Positions 14,583-37,663 of a stretch of 42,236 bases of DNA are shown one piece after another; positions within the stretch are counted from its first letter, which is position 1; the number at the start of each line of letters is the position of its first letter. The notes below the pieces were generated by a model, which saw only the letters and a program-made list of their open reading frames with translations, ran no database searches and was not told the DNA's origin. A program made the translations under genes and the position numbers. The DNA comes from a virus: IMG/VR virus record IMGVR_UViG_3300009183_000155, positions 1 to 42,236 of that record; one strand, given 5' to 3'.

Positions 14583-17500
14583 ATGGCCACGCTCAACGAA
14601 ATCCTGACCTACGGCAATGAGCTGGACCCCGCCACCGGCCAGCCCCGCGCCAATGCCATGCAACAGGCGGAAGCGGTGCGCGCCTGGCACCGCGAGACGG
14701 TAGACTATGGCCGCGCCGCCGTGGCGGACACTACCAATCCCCTGCCAGCCGATGACTTTTGGAAGGGCACCCTGGCCGTGGATGATGAGGTGACGCAAAC
14801 GCTGGAAGCCCTGCGCACCACCGCGATGGCGGATACCGCCACCACCCTGTTCCAAGACCCGGCAGAACTGCAAAGCTTTTGGCGGGTGTGGGAAAGCAGT
14901 GGTAAAGACCCGGAAAACATGGATGCGCCGGAGCGCTGGATCGCCAACGCCCGCGCCATCGACCAAGTGGGGCAGGCCCGCGCCTTCCAAGCGCCACGCT
15001 ACCAGTCCGGACAGATCGGGATCGGCCCGAACGTGCTGGGCCACTACCTGATCCGGGAGAAGGAAGACGGCACCGGATACCAAAGCTACGTCCAGAGCGC
15101 CATCCCCACCAAGCAGGAGATCAAACAAGCGGACGGCACTACCAAAACCGTAGAAGCCCTGCCGCCCCCCATCACGGTGGACCTGCCCACCATCGAGGCG
15201 ATGCGGCAGAAGGCGAATGAGCGCCTGGCCAAGACCTCCCAAGACTGGAACCTCTATCAACCCCGTGAACGCGCACCCGTGCCGGGCGCAGGAATGTTTG
15301 ACGCCTTTGTGCAAAGCAATGAGGCCAGAGAGTATGAAAAGCGTTTTCTATCCGCTAAATCCCGCGCCGACCTCATCAACAGCAAGGATCTGGCCACCGC
15401 CTTGCACGTAGGACTGGATGACAACTTGACGCAAAACGCCGCCTTCCTGGATCAACTCCCCGGAGGCGTAGGCGCATGGGCTGAACAACTGACCCTGCGC
15501 CCCATGAACCAAGTCGCCCGTGGCCTGGCCCAAGCCTACGCCGCCCTGCCCGGTACGGATAACCGTGCCCTGACCCAGGAAGGCCAGGATGCCGTGGAAA
15601 CCGTGACCCCCGGTGCACTAGCCAACCGCTACGAGAACTCTCCGACAGGCACCACGCCCATCGCCGACATGATCACCAGCGGCATTGAGAGCGCCGTCAC
15701 CATGATCGGCCCCGGCCTAGCCACCAAGCTGGCAGGCCGCGCCATGACGGGCTTCAAGCTGGCAGACCGCGCCAGGATGGGCACCAAAATCGGCCGCGCC
15801 GGAGCCATGGCCAATGCCATGGATGAAGCCACCGGCACCTCTCTGCCCTTCCTGAGCGCCCGCACCCGGACTGGCTTTGTGGGAGAGCAAAGCGGCTGGG
15901 GCGGGATGTTCACCACCGCGAGCGGCCAATCCTACGCGGCCACAGAACAGGAAGCCACTGCCCTGGATGCCACCGACCCCGCCCGCGCCGCCCGCCTGCG
16001 CCGATGGAACGGCCTGACCTCTCTGGCCAAAGGAGCCATTGAAATCGGCACGGAGCATATCTTCCCCGGCGAGATGGCCTTGCTGCGTGGCCAGCGCCGT
16101 TCAATCGGCAGCTTGGCCTTGATGCCCTTCCAAGAAGGCACGGAAGAATACCTTGGAGCGGTAGCCCAAAACGGCGTCGCCGCCCTCTCCGGCAGCCAAC
16201 AATTCGAAGACCCATGGCAAGCCGCCCGTGGAGGCTTCTACGGCAGCGCCCCCTTCATCGCGGCGGCAGCCAGCGCCGGACGCTTCAGCCCCCAGCCCGC
16301 CGCCCCGGCAGACCCAAACCAAGCCCCGCCCGCCGCGCCTCCCGCCGACCCCAACGCGCCCGCCCCCGGCCCGGATGGCACCCTTTTCCCCAACGTCAAC
16401 GTCAACCCGCAGGATGCCAACGGCCCCGCGCCGACCGCCCTCGCAGGCATCGCCCAACGTGGCGGAAGGGAAGACTCCTCTCAAATCTCAAACCTCCCGC
16501 CCATCCCCACCGCCGGGCGTACCACCGCCTACGGCTACGCCAACGACGAAACCCCCGACGCCAACAGCAGTGCCGGGATCGGCGCCTTCGTCAGCAGCGC
16601 AGAGGCGGAGAAAATCAAGCGCGGCGAACCCAGCGAAATGCGCCTGCGCTCTGGCGACCTAGCCGTGAGCCGCGACATCGAGGCCCAGTTCCGCGCCCAA
16701 GGCATCCGCCCCGGCGACGCCGTGACCCTGCACTACGCGGACGGCACCACCCACACCGGACGCTGGATGGACCGCACGGACGGTAGCCTGGATGGTCGCT
16801 TCGACCTCTACAGCCCGAACGGCCCGCCCTCCAATGACGGCAGCAAAATCACCGGATTCAACCCCGGCGGCAGCGTCCAGGATCCATCAACCATCAACTC
16901 TCAACCATCAACCATCCCCGATACCCCGGAAGACCTGGAAGACGGCAGCCCGAACCTGCACCCCAACGGCGTCACCCCTGCCGAAGTCCTCACCTTCCAG
17001 ACCGCCCAAGACGATCACCTCGCCCGCAACCCTGACACCGCCACCCAGCCAGAATCCCTGCGCACCCTGGACGCCCAGCTGGACCTCGTGAAGGACGGCG
17101 GGAAGCCCAGCATGATCTTTGAGGGCCTGACCCGCGACCAACTGCCCGCCCGGATGCGACCCATCGCCGGACGCGAAAGCCCCATCGATGGCGTGCAGAC
17201 GCCCGGCGGCTATGTCATCTTCAACAAAGCCGCCATCCGCCCCGCCCTGGGCCTGCGTGCCGCCGACCCCTACACCAGCGTGCAAGCCGCCGCCCGGCAG
17301 GCCTTCAGCAACCCCGCCACCGCCGGCCAGCTCCTCGGCTACGGCACCGCCGAAAAGCCCGCCGATGCCGACCACGCCCAAGTGATCCGCGCCGCCGATG
17401 GCACCGAAGTCCTCGCCGTAGCCGCCAATGCCGCCACCGCCGAGCCCACCGCCCAAGCCCTCGACCGCGCCGTCTCCCGCCGCGCCCAGAGCGCCAGCAA

Positions 17501-20500
17501 CGCCGCCTTCCGCGAGATGCCGCTCGCTCAATTTGTCATCCAATCCGGCGGCATCATGTCCCGCAGCACCGCCCGGAAGGAAGGACTCTACCGCCGCAGC
17601 AAATCCCTCTGGGACGATGCCCCGCAACGCCTCTCCAGCCCGGAGCACAACGCCATCTACGGCACCACCGCGCCGGACGAGCTGGCCCAGAGCGCCATCC
17701 GCGCCGGACTCCTCCCGGAAGGCAGCACCCAGCGGGAACTCTGGGCCGCCCTGGGCGAGGAATCCGCCGCCGCCCGCCGCCAAGCCACCGCCGCCCGCCA
17801 GCAGGACCAAGACATGGCCCAGCTGGAACGCCTCGCCCGCCGCGAGCCGCTGGACTTCACCCTGGCCATGCGGGCCAAGAGCCGCCGCGAAGAATCCCGC
17901 CAAGCCCTCCGCCAAACCGCCGAGCCAGTCAGCATCGCCGAGCCGCTCACCGACCCCACGGACGATCCGAACTACGTGCCCTTCAGCCGTTCATCCATCA
18001 ACAATCAACCTTCAACCATCAACCGGGGCGTCACCCCCAAAGCCGCGCAGGAAGCCCTCGCCCTCCTCCGCCAATCCCTCCCCGCCGTGGCGGATGCCAC
18101 CCGCATTGTCACCAACCGCGATGCCCTGGCCGATGAGGTGGACGACTACCGCCCGCAGGACTGGGCCGACATGGGCCCCGGCGGCGTGCAAGGCTTCTAC
18201 GACCCCCGCACCGGCCAGACCACCGTGATCCTGGAGAACATCGAAGTCCGCCCCGGCGAAACGCCGCTCCGCGCCGTGGCCCGGATCATCCTGCACGAGC
18301 GCATCGCCCATGCCGGTCTCGCCACCCTGCGCGAGAACGACTCCACCTTCGACCGCCAGTGGCAGCAGCTCACCGCCCAGATCCCGCAAGCAGAACTGCA
18401 AGCCATCGCCGAGCGCTACCCGGAACTGAGCGGCAATCTAAACGCCCTGGCCGAGGAATGGCTGGCCCAGCAAGTGGAAGCCCGCGCCGGGAAACTCCTC
18501 CCCGCCAACACCCTCGCCGGGAAACTCTGGGCTGCCCTCAAGGCCGCCCTCGCCCGCGTCTTTAGCCGCCACAGCCGCTCCACCCCGCTGGATGCCGAGG
18601 TGGACCGCATCATCGAACTGGCCCGGAATGCGCTGAAGACGCAGTTTGTCCCCGCCGGTCCCGGCCCGGTGCTGGACGCCATGGCCCGGCTACACTTCCT
18701 GCGCGCCTTCCACGGCACACCGCACAAGGTGGACAAGTTCAGCACCGACAAGATCGGCACCGGCGAGGGAGCGCAGGTTTATGGATGGGGGCTTTACTTT
18801 GCGGAGAACAAAAGAATAGCGGAGAACTACCGCCGCACCCTGACAGGCAAGCAATTTATTAAGAAAGTGAAAGACACCTACGGGGAATACGACGCCCCGC
18901 AGGAAGCCACGGACGCATTGCTTTCAAACCCAGACCTAGAAGGCTACGAGCGCCGCCTGCTGGAGGCCCTGCAAGCAGATGCTTGGTTTGGCTTTGACTA
19001 CCCCCACCAAGCGGTGCGCGCCGCGCTAAGCAATGAAGTGCAAAGCTGGGACCCATCACCGGAAACCATGGCCGCGGTCGCTAACTTTGGCAACCTCTAC
19101 ACGGTGGACATTCTGCCCAATGAGGAGGAATTCCTAGACTGGGACAAGCCGCTGAACGAGCAGAGCGACAATGTCAAATCAGCACTAGCGAAACACAAGC
19201 CAAGCAGCTTGCCTGATGGAAAACTACTCGCAGACATGGACGGCCAGTTCATTTACCGAATGGCGCTAGGTGACTTTGCTGGAGCTGATAATGTAGAAAT
19301 GGCTGCGGAAAAAACATCCAGATATTTCCAAAGCCTAGGCATCCCCGGGATCAAATACTTTGACAGCAACAGCCGACGGCCTGGAATAGTAGCGCAACAA
19401 CTTCGGAGAAGTATTGCGGATTGGCGTGAACGCTACAGCCTATCCCCTGATGAGTTCCACCGCCAAGAACTGGCGCGCCTTGAACAGGAGCTGGCCCGCT
19501 ATGAAGAAACCAATCTCTCCAGGAACTTCGTCATTTTCGACGAAAACCTCATCAAGATCCTTGAGGAAAACGGCGAAGTCAGAATGAGCCGCCCCAAGCT
19601 TAACTTCGCCCGCCCCGGCCCCATCGCTGGCAGGCTGCTGCCCGCCGCCAACCGCGAGAGCCAAGTCTTCTACCGGGGCGAGGGAGCTTACCGGGTGCAG
19701 CGCCCGCAGCTCCGCGCCCTCTTCACAGGACGCATCCTACCCAAGGAAGTGGCGGACTACGTGGAAATGAGCAATCACGACAAGGCTGCCGTGGACTTGG
19801 CAGCCGCCGCACTGGTGCGCGATTTGCAGGGAGCCATCACCCTGCACGCCAAGGCCAACGGCCTGACAGAGGCAGATGTGACCGCCCTGGTGGACGCCGC
19901 CATGCAGGATCCTACCACCCTGGCTGCGCTCCAGGATCCCGTGCTAAAAGAAGCCACGCGCAAGGCGCGGAACTTCCTGGATGATGGCAGCACCGCCATC
20001 GCCACCATCACCGGAGGCCAGCTGGGCAGCGCGCTCATGGCCAATCGTGGCCACTGGATGCGCCGGGCCTACAAGGCCTTCGACCCCGCCGCGAACTGGA
20101 CCTACGACCGCCTCCAAGACTACGCGGCCAAGGGCAAGACCGTGGAAGGCGTAGCAGCCAGCAAGATCTTAAAAGATGCGGAAGCCTACCTTCTCACGGA
20201 AGACCCGACCCGCACCCCGGCGCAGATCGAAAGCATCCTGCGCGACTTGATGAACCGCCGCGTCTGGGAACAGGCCCTTACCAGCCAAGCCATCAGCAAG
20301 CCGGTGGATAGCCTGATGAAACGCAAGGACCTGGCCCCGGAACTCCGCGCCGTGATGGGCGAAGAGACCAACGTGCTGCGCAGAATTTCCAACAGCGCGG
20401 GATTCCAAGCCGGATTCATCGCCAAACATGAAATGCAGACACGCATCGCCGACCTGGGCCTGCGCCTGGGCTTCATCAGCACGGAGCGCGGCGGTGTCTT

Positions 20501-22361
20501 CACCGAACTCCTCAGCGAGGGCCAGCCGACCGCCGCCGGGCAGCGCCGCAGCGGATTCGCCGGACTCTACACTTCCAAGGAATTCAAAGCCGCCCTGGGC
20601 TACAGCCGCATCGTGGAGCCGCAGGACTTGGCAGGCTGGTTCACCAAGGCATTGATCAGCCTGGGCGGCATCGCCAAAGCAGATGCCGTGGCGCTCTCGC
20701 CAAAATCCTGGACTGTCAACATTTTCGGCGGATTGGTAGGCATCATGCAAAACGGCCACCTCTACGACCACCGCATCGTCAGCCGCTGGCAGGAAGCCTA
20801 CCGCATACGCGCCAGCAGCAAAGACATGAGCCGCGCCCTGGGCACCGCCCGCCAAGCGTTCATCGAGCAGAAACGCGAGATGCTGACCCGCCTCACCGCC
20901 GCCGGGATCAACAACAACAATTTCACCCTGCGTGACATGGACGCCACCATCACCGTGGCCTTGGAAAGCTACCTTATCAACCCTGCCCAAACCTGGCAAG
21001 ACCGCATGGCCGGCATGGTGCGCGGTGCCGCCCACGGCAGCGCGATAGGTAAATTCAGCCGCCCGACCCGCATCGGTGGAGCCATCGCCGGAGGCATCGC
21101 CGGGGGAATCGTCGGCGAGGCACGGATCAACCAAGCCGTGCGCAATATCGGGCAGTTTACCATAGGCAAGTCAGACAATTTCTTCAAAGTCATCTCTTTC
21201 CTGTCCAACTACGAAAGCCACCTCCTCAGCGGCATGACAGACAGCGCCGCCTTTGACCTGGCTGCCGAGAAGACCAGCAACACCATGCCCAACTACGACA
21301 AGGTATGGGGCCCACTGAAATCCGCCAGCAAGCTGGGCATCGGCATCGGATCTTTCATCAGCTTCACCAGCGAACTCTACCGCAATACCTTCCACGCCCT
21401 GAACTACGCCAAGAAGGAAATCGCCAGCAGCAACGCACACACCCGTATGCAAGGCGTGCGGCGCCTCGCCGGAGTCGCCAGCGTGCAAGCCCTCGCCACC
21501 TTCGGCATCCCCGCCCTGATCGCCAAGCTCTACGGCAAAATGGTGGGCGACGACGAGGACAAAATCGCCCGCAAATGGTGGCTCCCCAAATGGAACCGCT
21601 ACCAAAGCCTGACCTACAGCAAGTTTGGCCCGGACAAAATCACCTACGCCAACGTCAGCTACCTCATCCCACAAGCCACCCTGAACGAGATCATCATCGC
21701 CGCCGCAGAAGGCCGCACCCTGGGCGATGGTCTCGTCAAAGCCCTGGAAGCCGGACAGAAACAATTTATCGGCGGCGGCATCCACACCGACCCCATCCTG
21801 CAAGCCCTCGCCAACCGCGACGGGTACGATCAGATCGTCTCCCGTGCTCCAAATGCCTGGGCCAATGGCTTTGAGCGCTTCCTCTACGCCTCCGACAAAA
21901 TCTTCTCCCCCGGCCTAGCCAACGACCTGGAGAAAACCGTTCGCGCCACCACCGGAGCCGACAAAAATGGCCGCACCTACGAACTCAAAGAAATCTTTGA
22001 AAGCTACCTGGGATTCCGCACCACCACCATGGAAACGCCCAAGCTCATCACCGGAGCCTTGATGACCCTGCGCGGCCGGTACACCACCGCCGTGGACCGC
22101 GCCAATCTGGCCTACAAACTCAACCAGCCCTTCGGCGGACGCGAAGCCACCCTGCGCGACCTCAACCAAACCATCGCCGAGATCCAATCTGACTACGCGA
22201 CATTCACCCAAGACATGGCCAAGATCGGCATGACCGAGCTGACCCGCCACGCCAACGCCGACCGCAAGAACAAGGCCGGCAAGAACACCGCCGACATCAT
22301 CACCCCCAAGACCTTCCGCCCCTACCGCCTCACCCCAAAAGGCTTCGAAGCGGTGAAGTAG
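14583..22361 (+). CDS. Giant polyvalent virion protein with zincin-like and ADP-ribosyltransferase domains
   Basis: This 2592-residue protein matches the phage polyvalent-protein theme: many domains carried into the host with the DNA. A zincin-like motif HERIAHAGL lies at 1238-1246. An ADP-ribosyltransferase-like domain spans about 1376-1660: FHGTPH (H1377), VYGWGLYF (1399-1406), YTVDILPNEEEFLDWDKPL (1506-1524), GIPGIKYFDSNSRR, and NFVIFDENLIKIL around 1648-1660. Short FSR/FAR linkers flank the domains. Near 2332 the WWLPKWNRYQSLTYSKFG segment resembles the C-terminal PLxRFG/LPD38 domain. Gly-rich hydrophobic stretches near 2160-2180 may insert in membranes. Two CCATCAA arrays add Ser/Asn/Gln linkers at about 768-778 and 1138-1147. 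It is last in the late operon. Likely roles are ejection and disarming host defences. Confidence 0.7.
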   Translation: MATLNEILTYGNELDPATGQPRANAMQQAEAVRAWHRETVDYGRAAVADTTNPLPADDFWKGTLAVDDEVTQTLEALRTTAMADTATTLFQDPAELQSFWRVWESSGKDPENMDAPERWIANARAIDQVGQARAFQAPRYQSGQIGIGPNVLGHYLIREKEDGTGYQSYVQSAIPTKQEIKQADGTTKTVEALPPPITVDLPTIEAMRQKANERLAKTSQDWNLYQPRERAPVPGAGMFDAFVQSNEAREYEKRFLSAKSRADLINSKDLATALHVGLDDNLTQNAAFLDQLPGGVGAWAEQLTLRPMNQVARGLAQAYAALPGTDNRALTQEGQDAVETVTPGALANRYENSPTGTTPIADMITSGIESAVTMIGPGLATKLAGRAMTGFKLADRARMGTKIGRAGAMANAMDEATGTSLPFLSARTRTGFVGEQSGWGGMFTTASGQSYAATEQEATALDATDPARAARLRRWNGLTSLAKGAIEIGTEHIFPGEMALLRGQRRSIGSLALMPFQEGTEEYLGAVAQNGVAALSGSQQFEDPWQAARGGFYGSAPFIAAAASAGRFSPQPAAPADPNQAPPAAPPADPNAPAPGPDGTLFPNVNVNPQDANGPAPTALAGIAQRGGREDSSQISNLPPIPTAGRTTAYGYANDETPDANSSAGIGAFVSSAEAEKIKRGEPSEMRLRSGDLAVSRDIEAQFRAQGIRPGDAVTLHYADGTTHTGRWMDRTDGSLDGRFDLYSPNGPPSNDGSKITGFNPGGSVQDPSTINSQPSTIPDTPEDLEDGSPNLHPNGVTPAEVLTFQTAQDDHLARNPDTATQPESLRTLDAQLDLVKDGGKPSMIFEGLTRDQLPARMRPIAGRESPIDGVQTPGGYVIFNKAAIRPALGLRAADPYTSVQAAARQAFSNPATAGQLLGYGTAEKPADADHAQVIRAADGTEVLAVAANAATAEPTAQALDRAVSRRAQSASNAAFREMPLAQFVIQSGGIMSRSTARKEGLYRRSKSLWDDAPQRLSSPEHNAIYGTTAPDELAQSAIRAGLLPEGSTQRELWAALGEESAAARRQATAARQQDQDMAQLERLARREPLDFTLAMRAKSRREESRQALRQTAEPVSIAEPLTDPTDDPNYVPFSRSSINNQPSTINRGVTPKAAQEALALLRQSLPAVADATRIVTNRDALADEVDDYRPQDWADMGPGGVQGFYDPRTGQTTVILENIEVRPGETPLRAVARIILHERIAHAGLATLRENDSTFDRQWQQLTAQIPQAELQAIAERYPELSGNLNALAEEWLAQQVEARAGKLLPANTLAGKLWAALKAALARVFSRHSRSTPLDAEVDRIIELARNALKTQFVPAGPGPVLDAMARLHFLRAFHGTPHKVDKFSTDKIGTGEGAQVYGWGLYFAENKRIAENYRRTLTGKQFIKKVKDTYGEYDAPQEATDALLSNPDLEGYERRLLEALQADAWFGFDYPHQAVRAALSNEVQSWDPSPETMAAVANFGNLYTVDILPNEEEFLDWDKPLNEQSDNVKSALAKHKPSSLPDGKLLADMDGQFIYRMALGDFAGADNVEMAAEKTSRYFQSLGIPGIKYFDSNSRRPGIVAQQLRRSIADWRERYSLSPDEFHRQELARLEQELARYEETNLSRNFVIFDENLIKILEENGEVRMSRPKLNFARPGPIAGRLLPAANRESQVFYRGEGAYRVQRPQLRALFTGRILPKEVADYVEMSNHDKAAVDLAAAALVRDLQGAITLHAKANGLTEADVTALVDAAMQDPTTLAALQDPVLKEATRKARNFLDDGSTAIATITGGQLGSALMANRGHWMRRAYKAFDPAANWTYDRLQDYAAKGKTVEGVAASKILKDAEAYLLTEDPTRTPAQIESILRDLMNRRVWEQALTSQAISKPVDSLMKRKDLAPELRAVMGEETNVLRRISNSAGFQAGFIAKHEMQTRIADLGLRLGFISTERGGVFTELLSEGQPTAAGQRRSGFAGLYTSKEFKAALGYSRIVEPQDLAGWFTKALISLGGIAKADAVALSPKSWTVNIFGGLVGIMQNGHLYDHRIVSRWQEAYRIRASSKDMSRALGTARQAFIEQKREMLTRLTAAGINNNNFTLRDMDATITVALESYLINPAQTWQDRMAGMVRGAAHGSAIGKFSRPTRIGGAIAGGIAGGIVGEARINQAVRNIGQFTIGKSDNFFKVISFLSNYESHLLSGMTDSAAFDLAAEKTSNTMPNYDKVWGPLKSASKLGIGIGSFISFTSELYRNTFHALNYAKKEIASSNAHTRMQGVRRLAGVASVQALATFGIPALIAKLYGKMVGDDEDKIARKWWLPKWNRYQSLTYSKFGPDKITYANVSYLIPQATLNEIIIAAAEGRTLGDGLVKALEAGQKQFIGGGIHTDPILQALANRDGYDQIVSRAPNAWANGFERFLYASDKIFSPGLANDLEKTVRATTGADKNGRTYELKEIFESYLGFRTTTMETPKLITGALMTLRGRYTTAVDRANLAYKLNQPFGGREATLRDLNQTIAEIQSDYATFTQDMAKIGMTELTRHANADRKNKAGKNTADIITPKTFRPYRLTPKGFEAVK
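16884..16911 (+). repeat. In-gene CCATCAA heptamer array
   Basis: Four 7-bp units (one degenerate, CTCTCAA) inside the polyvalent gene encode a Ser/Thr/Ile/Asn/Gln linker at about residues 768-778. Confidence 0.85.
17995..18022 (+). repeat. In-gene CCATCAA heptamer array
   Basis: Four 7-bp units (CCATCAA, CAATCAA, CCTTCAA, CCATCAA) inside the polyvalent gene follow a PFSRS linker at about residues 1138-1147, just ahead of the zincin-like domain. Confidence 0.85.
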
Positions 22362-26624: not shown

Positions 26625-27515
26625 TTAGATGCCGGCGCGGATGGCTTTCATTTCCTCGGCTAATTGCCAGAGGGCACGGTTGACGGCGGTGTTTTGATCA
26701 ATGCCGTTGATGGGGCGGGTGTGGCGCCGGGCGACGCGGCGACCGTTGGCGTCGCGCTGGACGTAGGAGACGCCGCCCCGAATCAGGTTTTCCTGAATGA
26801 CGTTCAAGGATGACCAGAGGTCAGATCCGGCATCCTCGCGGCGGTTGGGAGCGAGGATTTGCGGGGCGCTGACGGGGGCAAGGGCGGCGTCATCGTAGCG
26901 GGCGGTGAGGGCGGCGCGGGCAAAAATGGTGGCTTCGGCGGAACTTAGGTTGATGCTGCGCATTTCTTCGATGGATTCCTGGATGGCGGGAGTGGATTCA
27001 AGGATTTGGATGCAGCCGTCGATAACCTCGCTGGCGACGTCGCCGGTGTGTTTGACGCGGATTTCTTGGATGAGGCCGTCGCTGGTGATCAGGCCATTGC
27101 TGCAGACCATGCGGAATTGGCCGCCCATCATCCGGTAGGAGCTGGTGCCGTCGTGGCTGTTCATCAGGATAATTTCCGAAACGGTTTTATCAGGGCCGGA
27201 GGCGGTGGTGTCGCCCATGTGGCGGAGACGGATCAGGTGCTTGGTGAAGCCTTTTTTGTCATCGTCGCGGCTGCCGCCCTGGAAGGCGGCGAAGGGCTGG
27301 AATCCCTCGCGCTGCAATTTGCAGAGGATTTCGCTGGTGGGAATGTAGCTGTACCGCTCGCTGCGGGATTCATGTTTTTGCTCGGCAAACACGGAGGGCG
27401 TGGCGGCCTGGATTTCCTGGAGGGTCAGGGGAGTGTTTCCACGAGCGTGGAGGATGGCGCTGCCGGATTTTCCAAAAGATTTGATTCTGACGGTGGAGGT
27501 GTTATTGTAATACAT
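26625..27515 (-). CDS. DUF932 family protein
   Basis: The 296-residue product, read from the ATG at 27515 (MYYNNTSTVR), resembles the DUF932 family found on plasmids and phages. Its hallmarks are a central SEILCKLQREGFQPFAA segment (about 64-80), the HLIRLRH block (about 99), and MMGGQFRMVCSNGLITSDG (about 139-157), followed by a helical C-terminus. The biochemical role is unknown; these proteins are recurrent cargo on mobile elements. A long, AT-rich space upstream and its own CCAACC-type leader suggest it has its own promoter within the operon. Confidence 0.75.
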   Translation of the reverse strand: MYYNNTSTVRIKSFGKSGSAILHARGNTPLTLQEIQAATPSVFAEQKHESRSERYSYIPTSEILCKLQREGFQPFAAFQGGSRDDDKKGFTKHLIRLRHMGDTTASGPDKTVSEIILMNSHDGTSSYRMMGGQFRMVCSNGLITSDGLIQEIRVKHTGDVASEVIDGCIQILESTPAIQESIEEMRSINLSSAEATIFARAALTARYDDAALAPVSAPQILAPNRREDAGSDLWSSLNVIQENLIRGGVSYVQRDANGRRVARRHTRPINGIDQNTAVNRALWQLAEEMKAIRAGI

Positions 27516-27576
27516 GGCGTGTGGGTTGGTTATACGGTTGGTTGGTTGGTTGGTTGAAAACCGCCTTGCAGGGCGG

Positions 27577-27713
27577 GTGGCCATTTGCTGGCCACGAGAT
27601 GACAATTGCGCACTATTGTTTGACAGTCAAATAATATTTTGAATTATTTTTCAGGCTGGACAATGGGGCGTTGCAGGGTTAGGATTTACCCGTTGAAAGA
27701 TGTTATTCAACGG
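27577..27713. promoter_or_regulatory. AT-rich intergenic region with palindromes and a possible promoter
   Basis: Between the repressor stop and the DUF932 start there are three inverted repeats: GTGGCCA/TGGCCAC (27577-27595), TTTGACAGTCAAA (27619-27631) and CCGTTGAA/TTCAACGG (27690-27713). On the minus strand TTGACT (27630-27625) is followed 17 bp later by AATTGT, a weak promoter candidate for the DUF932 gene. The last hairpin may mark the end of the repressor transcript. Closer to the start, four tandem TTGG units occupy 27537-27556. Confidence 0.35.
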
Positions 27714-27729: not shown

Positions 27730-28146
27730 TCACTCGCCGCGGGCGCGGCGGGTGAGGGTGGCGAGCAGCAAATCCAAATCTTTGTCGCTGGTAATATTTC
27801 CGGCCCAGTAATCAAGATCCGCCTGCTGACGGGTGGTGAGCGCGGGTGCCCAACTACGGACGGAGCCGGTAAGCTGACCACTCTGCTGCTCGAGCAGCTG
27901 GACAAGCAGATCAGGATGGACTGCCAGCAGATCGTGGAGCCACGCAGCGAGTAGGCCGGAGGCGCTCTCTGTAGGGACAGCCTGCAGGTAGCTGAGCAAA
28001 TGCTCGTCGCGGATGGCGCGGCTGCCGGTCAAATGCTGGCCCACGGTGGTGCGATGTAGGCCAGCGCGGTCAGCTATGGCAAATTGATTCCACGCCTGGC
28101 TGGACATGACGGATTGGAGGAATTGGGAGGTTAGAGGGGTTTCCAT
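27730..28146 (-). CDS. Phage repressor, Cro/cI-type helix-turn-helix
   Basis: The 138-residue product (start MET at 28146) has an N-terminal helix-turn-helix at about residues 15-45: FAIADRAGLHRTTVGQHLTG fits the Cro/cI recognition fold. The rest is helical with no visible LexA-like protease or autocleavage site, so SOS self-cleavage is not supported. It is the first gene of the leftward operon and faces a divergent early operon, with two matching operators in between. Its mRNA is predicted to start at or next to the start codon. It probably maintains lysogeny and regulates itself. Confidence 0.8.
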   Translation of the reverse strand: METPLTSQFLQSVMSSQAWNQFAIADRAGLHRTTVGQHLTGSRAIRDEHLLSYLQAVPTESASGLLAAWLHDLLAVHPDLLVQLLEQQSGQLTGSVRSWAPALTTRQQADLDYWAGNITSDKDLDLLLATLTRRARGE

Positions 28147-28223
28147 GAAACATTTTGTAGCACGCCACAAATATTTGCAATTATTAGTTGCGCCTCATTT
28201 TGCGGCATGCTACAAATTGCATC
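28147..28223. promoter_or_regulatory. Divergent switch: twin operators and predicted leaderless promoters
   Basis: Two near-identical sites on opposite strands: TTGTAGCACGCCACAA (28155-28170) and TTGCGGCATGCTACAA (28200-28215). Each is an imperfect dyad (consensus TTGYRGCR/YGCYACAA). On the side facing each gene the site reads TACAAA, a -10-like box. From its end to the start codon is exactly 7 nt on both sides (28153-28147 for the repressor, 28217-28223 for the 28224 gene). That spacing puts the transcription start at or next to the AUG, so both mRNAs would be leaderless. The operator overlaps each promoter, so the repressor at 27730 could control both. Confidence 0.75.
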
Positions 28224-28442
28224 ATGAACGCAATAATTAATTCAACAATAATGGCGGCCGCGCGTGTGACCACGCTGGCCGAAACGGAGCGGGAAATTGC
28301 CTTTTTTGGTCGGCGGGCAAAATCGCCGGCCGCCAAGGTGGCCTACGCCGAGCTGCAACAGGAGCTGCAGGAGGTACGGGAGCGCTGGGAGATGCGCGGC
28401 CTGCTGGCCGAAGCAGAACCGGAAATCGAAGCGGCAGCCTAA
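28224..28442 (+). CDS. Small early regulator candidate
   Basis: A 72-residue alanine- and glutamate-rich protein starting at the first ATG after the operator. Residues 18-65 form a long charged helix (RAKSPAAKVAYAELQQELQ), and there is no clear helix-turn-helix. As the first rightward gene opposite the repressor it occupies the Cro position, but nothing in the sequence proves DNA binding. An antirepressor or protein-protein adaptor is possible. Confidence 0.6.
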   Translation: MNAIINSTIMAAARVTTLAETEREIAFFGRRAKSPAAKVAYAELQQELQEVRERWEMRGLLAEAEPEIEAAA

Positions 28443-30130: not shown

Positions 30131-30811
30131 ATGTGCTTCTCCGACCCAACACAACAGCCCCCCACTGCTCATTTTTTGGCGGGGTCAGGATCAGGCGGGA
30201 AGGAAGCGACTCCCGAACTGGCCTTGGAGTTGGAATTGGCCCTGGATGCGGCCAGCAAACAAGGCACCGGAAAGCGCGGGATCTACACGGCGGAGCGATT
30301 CCGCGAGCGCGAGCCGCGACGCTATGCGCTGGTGGTGACCGGGCTGGCGCAGGGCTATTCCAAGCAGGCTTTGGCGCGAGCACTGGGGTTGGCTTGGGAA
30401 ACGGTGCGAGCGATTGAGCGGGCGGAAGGCGAGCGCAGTATACGAGACGAGAAAAAAGGATTCGCTGATGGACTGGCGGATGTCATCGAAATCGGGATTG
30501 ATGGACTGCGAGACAAGGCATTGGCTGGCAAGCTGAGCGCTCTGGACGTGGCGGTCCTCACGGACAAATTTCTGACGCTGCGAGGCGAGGCCAGCAGCAT
30601 AATAGAGACGAGGGGCGAGGATCCGGCGGTCACGGCCTACCGGGAATTCATGCGGGCGATGGGTTCGGAGGCGGGGGATGTTTTTGCAAAGGGCGCGGCG
30701 GGCGCGCGGGTGGTGGTGGGTTCGGTGGTGGAAATGGGCCGGGAATCGGGGGCAGGTGGTGTGGAGCCACTCGCTGTCGGGCAACAACTCACTGAGGATC
30801 AAGGCAAATGA
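30131..30811 (+). CDS. Helix-turn-helix protein of the early operon
   Basis: The 226-residue product carries RRYALVVTGLAQGYSKQALARALGL around residues 63-87, a clear sigma-like or HTH-23-type helix-turn-helix that continues WETVRAIERAEG. The remaining C-terminal part is helical with an ALDVAVLTDKFLTLRG segment. It is the head of a chain of seven genes linked by 4-bp ATGA overlaps. Similar small-terminase-like proteins have this domain order, but it is distant from the large terminase. A regulator of the early operon fits as well. Confidence 0.6.
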   Translation: MCFSDPTQQPPTAHFLAGSGSGGKEATPELALELELALDAASKQGTGKRGIYTAERFREREPRRYALVVTGLAQGYSKQALARALGLAWETVRAIERAEGERSIRDEKKGFADGLADVIEIGIDGLRDKALAGKLSALDVAVLTDKFLTLRGEASSIIETRGEDPAVTAYREFMRAMGSEAGDVFAKGAAGARVVVGSVVEMGRESGAGGVEPLAVGQQLTEDQGK

Positions 30812-30966
30812 GCGTCTGTATCCCTGTTGGTGCTGTGGGTGGGTGGGCTGGTGGGCTGGTGGAAGGTGGCGGGATTTCTTTGCGGGCAGGGGGGGGAGGG
30901 GATCGGCGGGGGCGGCGGGCATTCACTCTTATATTCCATAACCATTCACAGAATTTATTACAATGA
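30808..30966 (+). CDS. Hidden 52-residue glycine-rich protein in an ATGA chain
   Basis: A short frame, MSVCIPVGAVGG onwards, starts at the ATG that overlaps the previous stop (ATGA 30808-30811) and ends in a TGA that overlaps the next start (ATGA 30963-30966). Seven neighbouring genes are all joined by exactly this 4-bp overlap, so the frame restores the chain and is likely translated. The product is very rich in G and R and has no domain. Its DNA contains a G-quadruplex-like tract, so the same sequence could be selected at DNA or RNA level. Confidence 0.6.
   Translation: MSVCIPVGAVGGWAGGLVEGGGISLRAGGGGDRRGRRAFTLIFHNHSQNLLQ
30837..30855 (+). repeat. Predicted G-quadruplex tract
   Basis: GGGTGGGTGGGCTGGTGGG has four runs of three G with loops of 1, 1 and 5 nt, which is a stable quadruplex pattern. 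A second G-rich tract follows at about 30891-30921. Both lie within the 52-residue reading frame, on the coding strand. Confidence 0.6.
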
Positions 30967-31484
30967 TCCCTGTCGCTGATACCCAACTGGCCGAGCAATA
31001 CGGCGTTCCTACCGCTACCATTACCTTTCACCGGGAGAAGGTGCTCACTCAAGGTGTGCACTGGGAGAAGGACAATAAGCGGGTGATCTGGCTGGCTGCG
31101 GGACTGGAGGCTATCGCTGAAATGGTGGCTGCTCTGGACCCTGAAAAAAAAGACGGGGGGGCGGCTCCGGCTGCCGGGGATGGTGCTGCCGCGACTGGGG
31201 AGGGTGATGACAGCGCCCCCCCAACGGAGGAGCCGCCAGAGGCCCCGGATGAGCCGGAACCGCTCCCTCTGCGGACAGCCGAGGCGCGTGTTTTGATGAA
31301 GCATCCAAATCCTTGTTTTGTGCGCTGCCACATTCCTGGGGATAACGCGACCCAGCCCTTCGATGTGCGGCTGCGGAATCACCACACGATCCGCGGCAAG
31401 AACGCGCTGCTGCCGGTGGCCCAGCTGCCGGACGGGACCTGGATCTGCACGCACCCTCACCATTCACCGAGACCCTACGCATGA
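30963..31484 (+). CDS. Helix-turn-helix protein with acidic disordered linker
   Basis: The 173-residue product starts with a winged-helix-like unit (about residues 8-52, QLAEQYGVPTATITFHREK onward). A Pro/Ala/Glu/Gly-rich disordered stretch (about 60-105) follows, then a compact C-terminal part with several His and Cys (CFVRCHIPG, HPHHS). A DNA-binding head with a metal-binding tail is possible. It could be an anti-repressor or early regulator. It is coupled to the genes on both sides. Confidence 0.6.
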   Translation: MIPVADTQLAEQYGVPTATITFHREKVLTQGVHWEKDNKRVIWLAAGLEAIAEMVAALDPEKKDGGAAPAAGDGAAATGEGDDSAPPTEEPPEAPDEPEPLPLRTAEARVLMKHPNPCFVRCHIPGDNATQPFDVRLRNHHTIRGKNALLPVAQLPDGTWICTHPHHSPRPYA

Positions 31485-35753: not shown

Positions 35754-37663
35754 CTGCGGCTTACGACCCCCTGCAATTGGCCCTTGAGGCCCAGCCGGAC
35801 CATCCGGTCTATCCTGCCCTGACGCGGGGACAGCTGGAAATGCTGCCACCGGAAATGATCCTGACCCTGCTGGAAGGCCGGGCGCGGCAGATCAGGCAGG
35901 AGAAGGAAGATCCCTACCGTTATGGCCATGAGCCGGAGTTCTGGGATGTGATGGACTGGGCCGTGGCAGAGCGGCGGATAGACCGGCCCAGCCAAGTGTT
36001 GGAGGTGCTGATTCTGGGGGGAAACCGGGCGGCAAAAACGGAATTCGCGGCGAAGCGGATGATTCAGGGGATTGTCAGCAACAAGGAGTGGGAATGCCTG
36101 ATGCTCCATGCGGATGAACCCGCCAGCCGGGCGGTGCAGCAAAAGCGCAGCTGGAAATACCTGCCACCGGAGTGGAAGCCCAGCAGCGGCAAGGCCAAGA
36201 AAACAATCACGACCAAGCTGAACTATAACGAACTTTCCGGCTTTACGGAGAACGCCTTCGCGCTGTCCAATTCCTCGCATGGGCGCTTCAAATTTTACTC
36301 TGCGGATGTGACTTCTCTGGAGGGGATGGAATTTGATAGCGCGTGGAGCGATGAATTGATCCCGCTGAACTGGGTGGATGCGGTGGAATTCCGCCTCCTG
36401 ACGCGGGCGGAGCATACCAAGACGCTGGCGCTGCAACTGCGGCCCCTGCTGCGCGAGAAGGCGGCGGATCCGGCGCTGAGATTCCCCCGCGAATTGTTGG
36501 GGCGGCTTTATCAGGGAGTGCACCTGATCACGTTCACGCCTATTCTGGGATTCACCCCGACTTGTGGGCGATTCCTGACCGGGGCCCGGACGATCATGGA
36601 GGTGGAAGCGGAATTGTTGCCGTATACCTCGCCGGATGGGACGAGCGGATTCCGCCGGGTGCCGCGCCTGCAGATCGGAAAGGAAACAAACCGCCTGATC
36701 GGTTATTTCCACACCTATGACAACAAATACGGCGGGAACTGGGACGGGATGAAGGCCAAGCTGGCCAATGCCACGGAGCGCAAGATCAAGGAACGCGCCT
36801 ATGGTGTGCCGGAAGCGGCGTTCGACACACGCTTCCCCATGTTCAGCCACGCCAGCCATGTCAGGGCAGAGAATTTCACTCCGGCGGAAGCCACCTGGTA
36901 TCAGATTGTGGATCCCTGCCCTGGGCGGAATTTCTCGATGATCTGGGTAGCGGTGAATGCCCTGGGGGAGAGCTTCATCGCCCGCGAGTGGCCGCAGGAG
37001 GACGATTACATCCCCGGCATCGGCAGTCCCGGCCCGTGGGCGGTGCCCAGCACCGGCACGCGAAAAGATGGCGACAAAGGCCCGGCGCAGAAGCCGTTTG
37101 GGTTCGGCATTAAATCCTACAAGCGCGAGATGGCCCGCGTGGAGCGGGAGCTGCACCGGCTGCTGCATCCTCACGACTCTGCCAATAGCAAGAAGCGAAT
37201 CCCCATCTTCAAGCGGATCATGGACAGCCGGGGCGGTGCCGCCCCTACCCTGGCCCATGAAAGCCCCAAGACGCTGATGGACCTCTTCGCGGAGGTGGAT
37301 CCGGAGGATGATACGGATGAGGAATTCCTCTTTGATCCCAGCAGCAAATCCCTTACTGGCGAGGGCGGGAACGGCGGGATTATGGACGGCGTGGAGATGG
37401 TGAACGACTTGCTATTCTACGACGAAACCCAAGCCACCCTGAACGAGCCAGGCGACCGCATGACCTTCCGCGGCGCGGCCCCCCGCCTCTACGTCTGCAC
37501 CCGCTGCACCAATACCATCAACGCCCTGAGCACCTGGACCGGAGCGGATGGCCAGAAGGGTGCCTGCAAGGATTTCGCGGACTTGCCCCGCTACTACGCG
37601 CAGGCCGGACCGGAATACATCCCCGAATCCAACACCCGCCCACGGGGAGGCGGGACTTTCTAA
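35750..37663 (+). CDS. terL: Terminase large subunit
   Basis: The 637-residue product has the ATPase signature of phage terminases: ILGGNRAAKT (Walker A, 88-97) and FDSAWSDEL with D201-E202 (Walker B). The C-terminal nuclease-like half shows acidic residues D388 and D492 in RNase H-type strands (IVDPCPGRNFSMIWV near 386). The start at 35750 overlaps the upstream stop. It powers DNA entry into the prohead through the portal and cuts the concatemer. The large size and the divergent Walker A (GGNRAAKT) are usual for podovirus-type terminases. Confidence 0.88.
   Translation: MTAAYDPLQLALEAQPDHPVYPALTRGQLEMLPPEMILTLLEGRARQIRQEKEDPYRYGHEPEFWDVMDWAVAERRIDRPSQVLEVLILGGNRAAKTEFAAKRMIQGIVSNKEWECLMLHADEPASRAVQQKRSWKYLPPEWKPSSGKAKKTITTKLNYNELSGFTENAFALSNSSHGRFKFYSADVTSLEGMEFDSAWSDELIPLNWVDAVEFRLLTRAEHTKTLALQLRPLLREKAADPALRFPRELLGRLYQGVHLITFTPILGFTPTCGRFLTGARTIMEVEAELLPYTSPDGTSGFRRVPRLQIGKETNRLIGYFHTYDNKYGGNWDGMKAKLANATERKIKERAYGVPEAAFDTRFPMFSHASHVRAENFTPAEATWYQIVDPCPGRNFSMIWVAVNALGESFIAREWPQEDDYIPGIGSPGPWAVPSTGTRKDGDKGPAQKPFGFGIKSYKREMARVERELHRLLHPHDSANSKKRIPIFKRIMDSRGGAAPTLAHESPKTLMDLFAEVDPEDDTDEEFLFDPSSKSLTGEGGNGGIMDGVEMVNDLLFYDETQATLNEPGDRMTFRGAAPRLYVCTRCTNTINALSTWTGADGQKGACKDFADLPRYYAQAGPEYIPESNTRPRGGGTF

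Follow-up and report, generated by a model that had tools for sequence, protein, structure and literature searches.

A putative repressor-controlled divergent immunity switch with two candidate operators in a temperate tailed phage

Described switches with leaderless messages

The cI mRNA that phage lambda transcribes from PRM is leaderless. Leaderless messages are also known for SetR, the repressor of SXT (PMC4542580), for PaaR2 of the paaR2/ydaS pair, whose genes face away from each other across a 97-bp gap in the cryptic prophage CP-933P of E. coli O157:H7 (PMC8630535), and for the C proteins of restriction-modification systems, where leaderless C mRNAs are common and the promoter lies directly at the start codon (PMC4824078). 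In phage PY54 both arms of the switch are of this kind, as 5' RACE found the cI and cro mRNAs to be single leaderless species that begin at the AUG (PMC4488713). The idea of promoter, operator and start codon as one compact element is thus not new, and the original prediction for the locus described here, that a mirrored pair of leaderless messages would be unusual, does not hold in view of PY54.

The locus lies in a 42,236-bp stretch of viral DNA, the whole of which was analyzed and is referred to as the window. It shares with PY54 a divergent repressor and early gene, which in PY54 are separated by a 116-bp gap with a 16-bp palindromic operator (PMC4488713). However, CI and Cro of PY54 belong to other protein families and there is a single Cro operator (PMC4488713), whereas the window has two mirrored candidate operators and a first early gene without a Cro-like helix-turn-helix (HTH). 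The paaR2/ydaS pair likewise combines divergent regulators with a short gap, but leaderless transcription was demonstrated there for the repressor side only, in a lambda-like PR/PRM arrangement and an E. coli host (PMC8630535). The C proteins share the small Cro/C1-type HTH and palindromic boxes (PMC4824078), and two of them, C.AhdI and C.Esp1396I, match the predicted fold of the window repressor. Those matched C proteins are only ~66–79 aa long and control restriction genes, while the window repressor continues for ~80 aa in an additional C-terminal half and belongs to a putative phage immunity region. Lambda cI/PRM and SetR resemble the locus in having an HTH_3 repressor and a divergent early promoter; their leaderless mRNA is established and is a candidate feature here, and the window differs from both in the missing S24 peptidase domain and in having two gap operators instead of three. 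A lambdoid OR region was ruled out by the features tested, namely the lack of S24, the first gene that is not Cro-like, and the operator number, which is two in the gap of the window, two in that of its relative and three in lambdoid OR.

The locus is very likely, as judged from sequence, a familiar kind of divergent immunity switch with two conserved candidate operators. With its defined operator motif and spacing, it extends the known switches to a phage lineage for which the annotated phage collection contains no close relative. Should both of its messages be leaderless, it would back the view of promoter, operator and start codon as a single compact element, as in PY54, and would be a further such case from an unrelated phage lineage.

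Gene pair and phage setting

A 77-bp gap (28147–28223) separates a leftward gene (27730–28146, minus strand) from a rightward gene (28224–28442, plus strand), with exactly the boundaries between the two start codons that had been given earlier. The 138-aa product of the leftward gene is best read, on homology and modeling, as a small Cro/C1-type (XRE, HTH_3) repressor. The window protein itself scores under the Pfam cut-offs, and its homologue in the relative described below passes the HTH_3 cut-off (7.5e-06). AlphaFold predicts an N-terminal helical domain with fair confidence (pLDDT 68–87), which superposes on the HTH domains of C.AhdI, C.Esp1396I and P22 c2 over ~53–57 residues (C.AhdI: 1.1 Å, 53 aligned columns). 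Foldseek E-values are weak (>0.04), and the fold assignment rests on this short-range superposition. No match to an S24 autoproteolytic C-terminal domain was found in the 138 residues. Just past the repressor gene, at 26625–27605 on the minus strand, lies a DUF932 protein (2.9e-46), which had no match among the examined stretches of the relative.

The rightward gene encodes a 72-aa protein with no Pfam match, no PHROG match and no Cro-like HTH. Its start is conserved in the relative, where the early-gene ATG is the sole usual start codon after the upstream stop, and the N-terminus of the repressor aligns with that of its homologue. From these alignments, both ATGs at the switch look like correct starts.

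The window also encodes a DnaB helicase, a terminase-like protein, relatives of which occur in numerous viral contigs, and, 4 kb from the switch, a tyrosine integrase (PHROG 1), which supports a temperate phage. Taken with the gene layout, we consider it likely that the locus is the divergent, repressor-controlled lysis-lysogeny (immunity) switch of a temperate tailed phage. Elsewhere in the window, positions 14583–22361 encode a polyvalent-type protein of 2,592 aa, whose weak match to ART-PolyVal (2.9e-06) falls narrowly short of the Pfam cut-off, and an early-region protein at 31481–32131 matches Spherulin4 (PF12138, 3.9e-11), an odd family for a phage.

IMG/VR was queried with the repressor, the 72-aa early protein, proteins of 292 and 226 aa, DnaB, the integrase and the terminase, and yielded a single close relative, IMGVR_UViG_3300046000_010979 (G001; 39,824 bp). 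Identity to this contig is highest for the terminase (87%), DnaB (84%) and the integrase (82%), and lower for the early protein (58%) and the repressor (50%). Both of its ends map side by side in the window (30811–30963), and from this adjacency the contig probably represents a permuted and nearly complete genome. In the annotated phage collection, the matches were limited to a terminase at 28% and distant DnaB proteins. A 30% terminase match was found in an Opitutae MAG in one scan of genome contigs, and 388 genomes of the phylum of that MAG held no credible repressor or integrase match; two weak repressor matches among them looked like chance.

Two candidate operators and their conservation

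Two related repeats lie within the gap. Operator 1, on the repressor side (28154–28171, TTTGTAGCACGCCACAAA), and operator 2, on the early-gene side (28199–28216, TTTGCGGCATGCTACAAA), are each imperfect 18-bp palindromes in which 7 of 9 pairs match. Set against each other, they share 16 of 18 positions if mirrored on opposite strands and 14 of 18 if read directly. They had been described as near-identical 16-bp operators on opposite strands; the repeats are indeed there, and two imperfect 18-bp palindromes describe them better. Nowhere else in the window does a site fit the pattern common to both with at most one mismatch. A third operator sought in the window by motif score was not found, the next best site scoring 10.5, under the mean chance maximum of 12.0 as measured on the composition of the relative. 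The symmetry extends to both start codons: the mirrored arms 28144–28171 and 28199–28226, which include the two ATGs, pair at 23 of 28 positions, and in 400 first-order resamples of this stretch the highest value was 19 of 28.

At its outer end each operator carries the hexamer TACAAA. On the minus strand the end of operator 1 reads TACAAA (28159–28154), 7 nt ahead of the repressor ATG, and at operator 2 the same hexamer (28211–28216) ends 7 nt ahead of the early ATG. This part of the original prediction is confirmed, as TACAAA-N7-ATG is present at exactly two places in the window (28144–28159, minus; 28211–28226, plus), with 0.11 expected from dinucleotide shuffles; the exact 7/7 symmetry is a post hoc observation.

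To ask how the repeats fare outside the window, a motif built solely from its four half-sites was run over all of G001. The three best sites were at 35946 (score 20.9), 36950 (13.8) and 36995 (13.5), compared with a mean maximum of 12.0 and a 95% point of 15.5 in 200 Markov resamples. The sites at 36950 and 36995, the equivalents of operators 1 and 2, have modest scores when taken one by one, but both fall within the corresponding divergent gap with the 45-bp spacing seen in the window, and a pair at this spacing appeared in none of the 200 null sequences. The conserved motif, spacing and location in this one relative, from which all the conservation evidence comes, provide good support for reading the repeats as operators. 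With the gene pair conserved as well, the predicted symmetrical divergent switch with two putative operators stands.

The strongest site in the relative would be a third operator (35946–35963), located ~420 bp past the repressor stop codon, after a rightward gene and ahead of a short rightward ORF overlapping the 3' end of the repressor gene. It is followed by TTGCATC and then by a long CTCAC tandem repeat, an arrangement without counterpart in the window.

Sequences of this type also fill the space between operator 2 and the early gene. In the window, TTGCATC (28217–28223, plus strand) takes up the whole 7-nt gap ahead of the early ATG and looks like a third half-site; the variant TTGCAGC similarly resembles a third half-site, TTTGYRGC. 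The composite ACAA.TTGCA(T/G)C is confined to operators: operator 2 carries the only copy in the window, and each of the three operators of the relative has one; operator 1 has no such extension. Because two of the three extensions in the relative have no gene start directly after them, the 7-nt distance from TACAAA to the early ATG is explained, on this comparison, as operator sequence wherever the transcript begins.

The gene layout, the operator sequences with their conserved spacing and the HTH fold prediction, all read directly from the data, lead us to propose that dimers of the 138-aa repressor would bind the two palindromic operators 45 bp apart. Bound repressor would then block the rightward early promoter and probably also its own leftward promoter. 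Since each operator overlaps the candidate −10 element of one of the two predicted divergent promoters, one repressor could control both.

Candidate promoters and transcript starts

Promoter matches were scored with a matrix of E. coli frequencies, and the scores serve for ranking only; the host may be another species. As a −10 element TACAAA agrees with TATAAT at 4 of 6 positions and is missing the final T (−7 T), and an extended −10 TGC precedes both copies. On the early side, a candidate −35 TTGCGC (28188–28193, plus strand) stands 17 nt from TACAAA, and the relative carries TTGCGT in the corresponding place. The full arrangement is TTGCGC-17-TACAAA-7-ATG in the window and TTGCGT-17-CACAAC-10-ATG in the relative, whose hexamer CACAAC makes a poor −10. 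The −35-like TTGCG(C/T) and its 17-nt spacer are kept in both phages while most other inter-operator DNA has diverged, which makes an early start at or near the AUG plausible. We give roughly an even chance to an early transcript that begins at the AUG or within ~3 nt of it.

The repressor side is different. Its candidate −35 TTGCAA (28175–28180, minus strand) has a spacer of 15 nt to TACAAA, or 17 nt to CAAAAT, and is not found in the relative. Furthermore, the repressor ATG of the relative is separated from the equivalent hexamer by 108 nt if the first candidate start is taken, and by 126 nt if the second is, the one that aligns with the repressor start in the window. A leaderless repressor message is therefore not a conserved property of the switch as far as this comparison goes. 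That the repressor transcript of the window is leaderless is somewhat doubtful, and if it were, the trait would belong to this phage in particular, not to the switch generally. The original prediction that both transcripts are leaderless is accordingly left with its early half as a possibility, through the hexamer 7 or 10 nt from the ATG and the shared TTGCG(C/T), and with a repressor half that the relative does not back.

The start regions of 29 other genes of the phage, with starts picked by hand, provide context. An anti-Shine-Dalgarno duplex of −5 kcal/mol or better was present at 5 of the 29, and since most genes of the phage do without a Shine-Dalgarno sequence, its absence at the switch proves nothing. 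A pyrimidine stands just before the ATG in 25 of the 29, compared with 37% for any ATG, and both switch genes have TC at this place like the phage's other genes, which fits leadered starts without a Shine-Dalgarno sequence as well as leaderless ones. Such starts across the window point to initiation of this kind in the host. Leaderless starts do not seem to be in general use in this phage, as a TA-type box 5–9 nt upstream, a feature used elsewhere to predict leaderless genes (PMC3160421), precedes 1 of the 29 starts.

The evidence from the relative agrees with a mixed arrangement, which we hold tentatively as a possible reading: the early message would be leaderless or nearly so, and the repressor message would be leadered or come from another promoter. 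In the relative, the early ATG is indeed 10 nt and the repressor ATG more than 100 nt from the operators. In the window, however, a long repressor leader would not fit unless transcription were to start in or beyond the center of the gap.

Leaderless transcription on both sides would mean that, on each side, a single TGCTACAAA unit doubles as operator half-site and −10 box, with RNA polymerase starting on the A of each AUG. The equal 7-nt distances, the TGC ahead of both hexamers, the early −35 at its 17-nt spacing, the C/A at the start position and 5' ends that are unpaired in the leaderless models are all consistent with this, but we regard it as doubtful. The position of the repressor ATG in the relative, the absent −7 T and the 15-nt repressor-side spacer argue against it, as do the TTGCATC extensions at operators that have no start codon, which account for the early-side distance otherwise. 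Moreover, other promoter placements score equally in the window, namely TTGCAA-17-CAAAAT on the minus strand and a symmetric −10 at 28179–28185.

This symmetric −10, which reads AATTAT on the plus and AATAAT on the minus strand, could serve both promoters from the AT-rich center of the gap. Predicted starts would fall at 28191 (plus) and 28173 (minus), giving leaders of ~33 nt for the early gene and ~27 nt for the repressor and placing the operators at the −35 and initial transcribed regions. The −7T/−11A positions are reciprocal, at 28180 and 28184, and starts 18 bp apart are the arrangement seen most often in bacterial bidirectional promoters (PMC10268837). TGC precedes AATTAT, the score is 6.6 compared with 5.7 on the plus strand (6.5 compared with 7.0 on the minus strand), and leadered transcripts without a Shine-Dalgarno sequence would be normal in this phage. 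Nevertheless, we judge a shared −10 to be rather unlikely: the element and the AT-rich center around it are not conserved in the relative, position −18 is a T on neither strand (28173 is A and 28191 is C on the plus strand), and the predicted start bases are not A.

That the repeats are chance or transcript hairpins instead of operators, for which nothing more than their palindromic cores speaks, is highly improbable given the motif, spacing and location kept in the relative and RNA folding around both starts that was no better than in shuffles.

The long repressor leader of the relative contains a palindrome of its own, GCGGAATAATTCCGC, at G001 positions 36883–36897, which differs from the operator motif.
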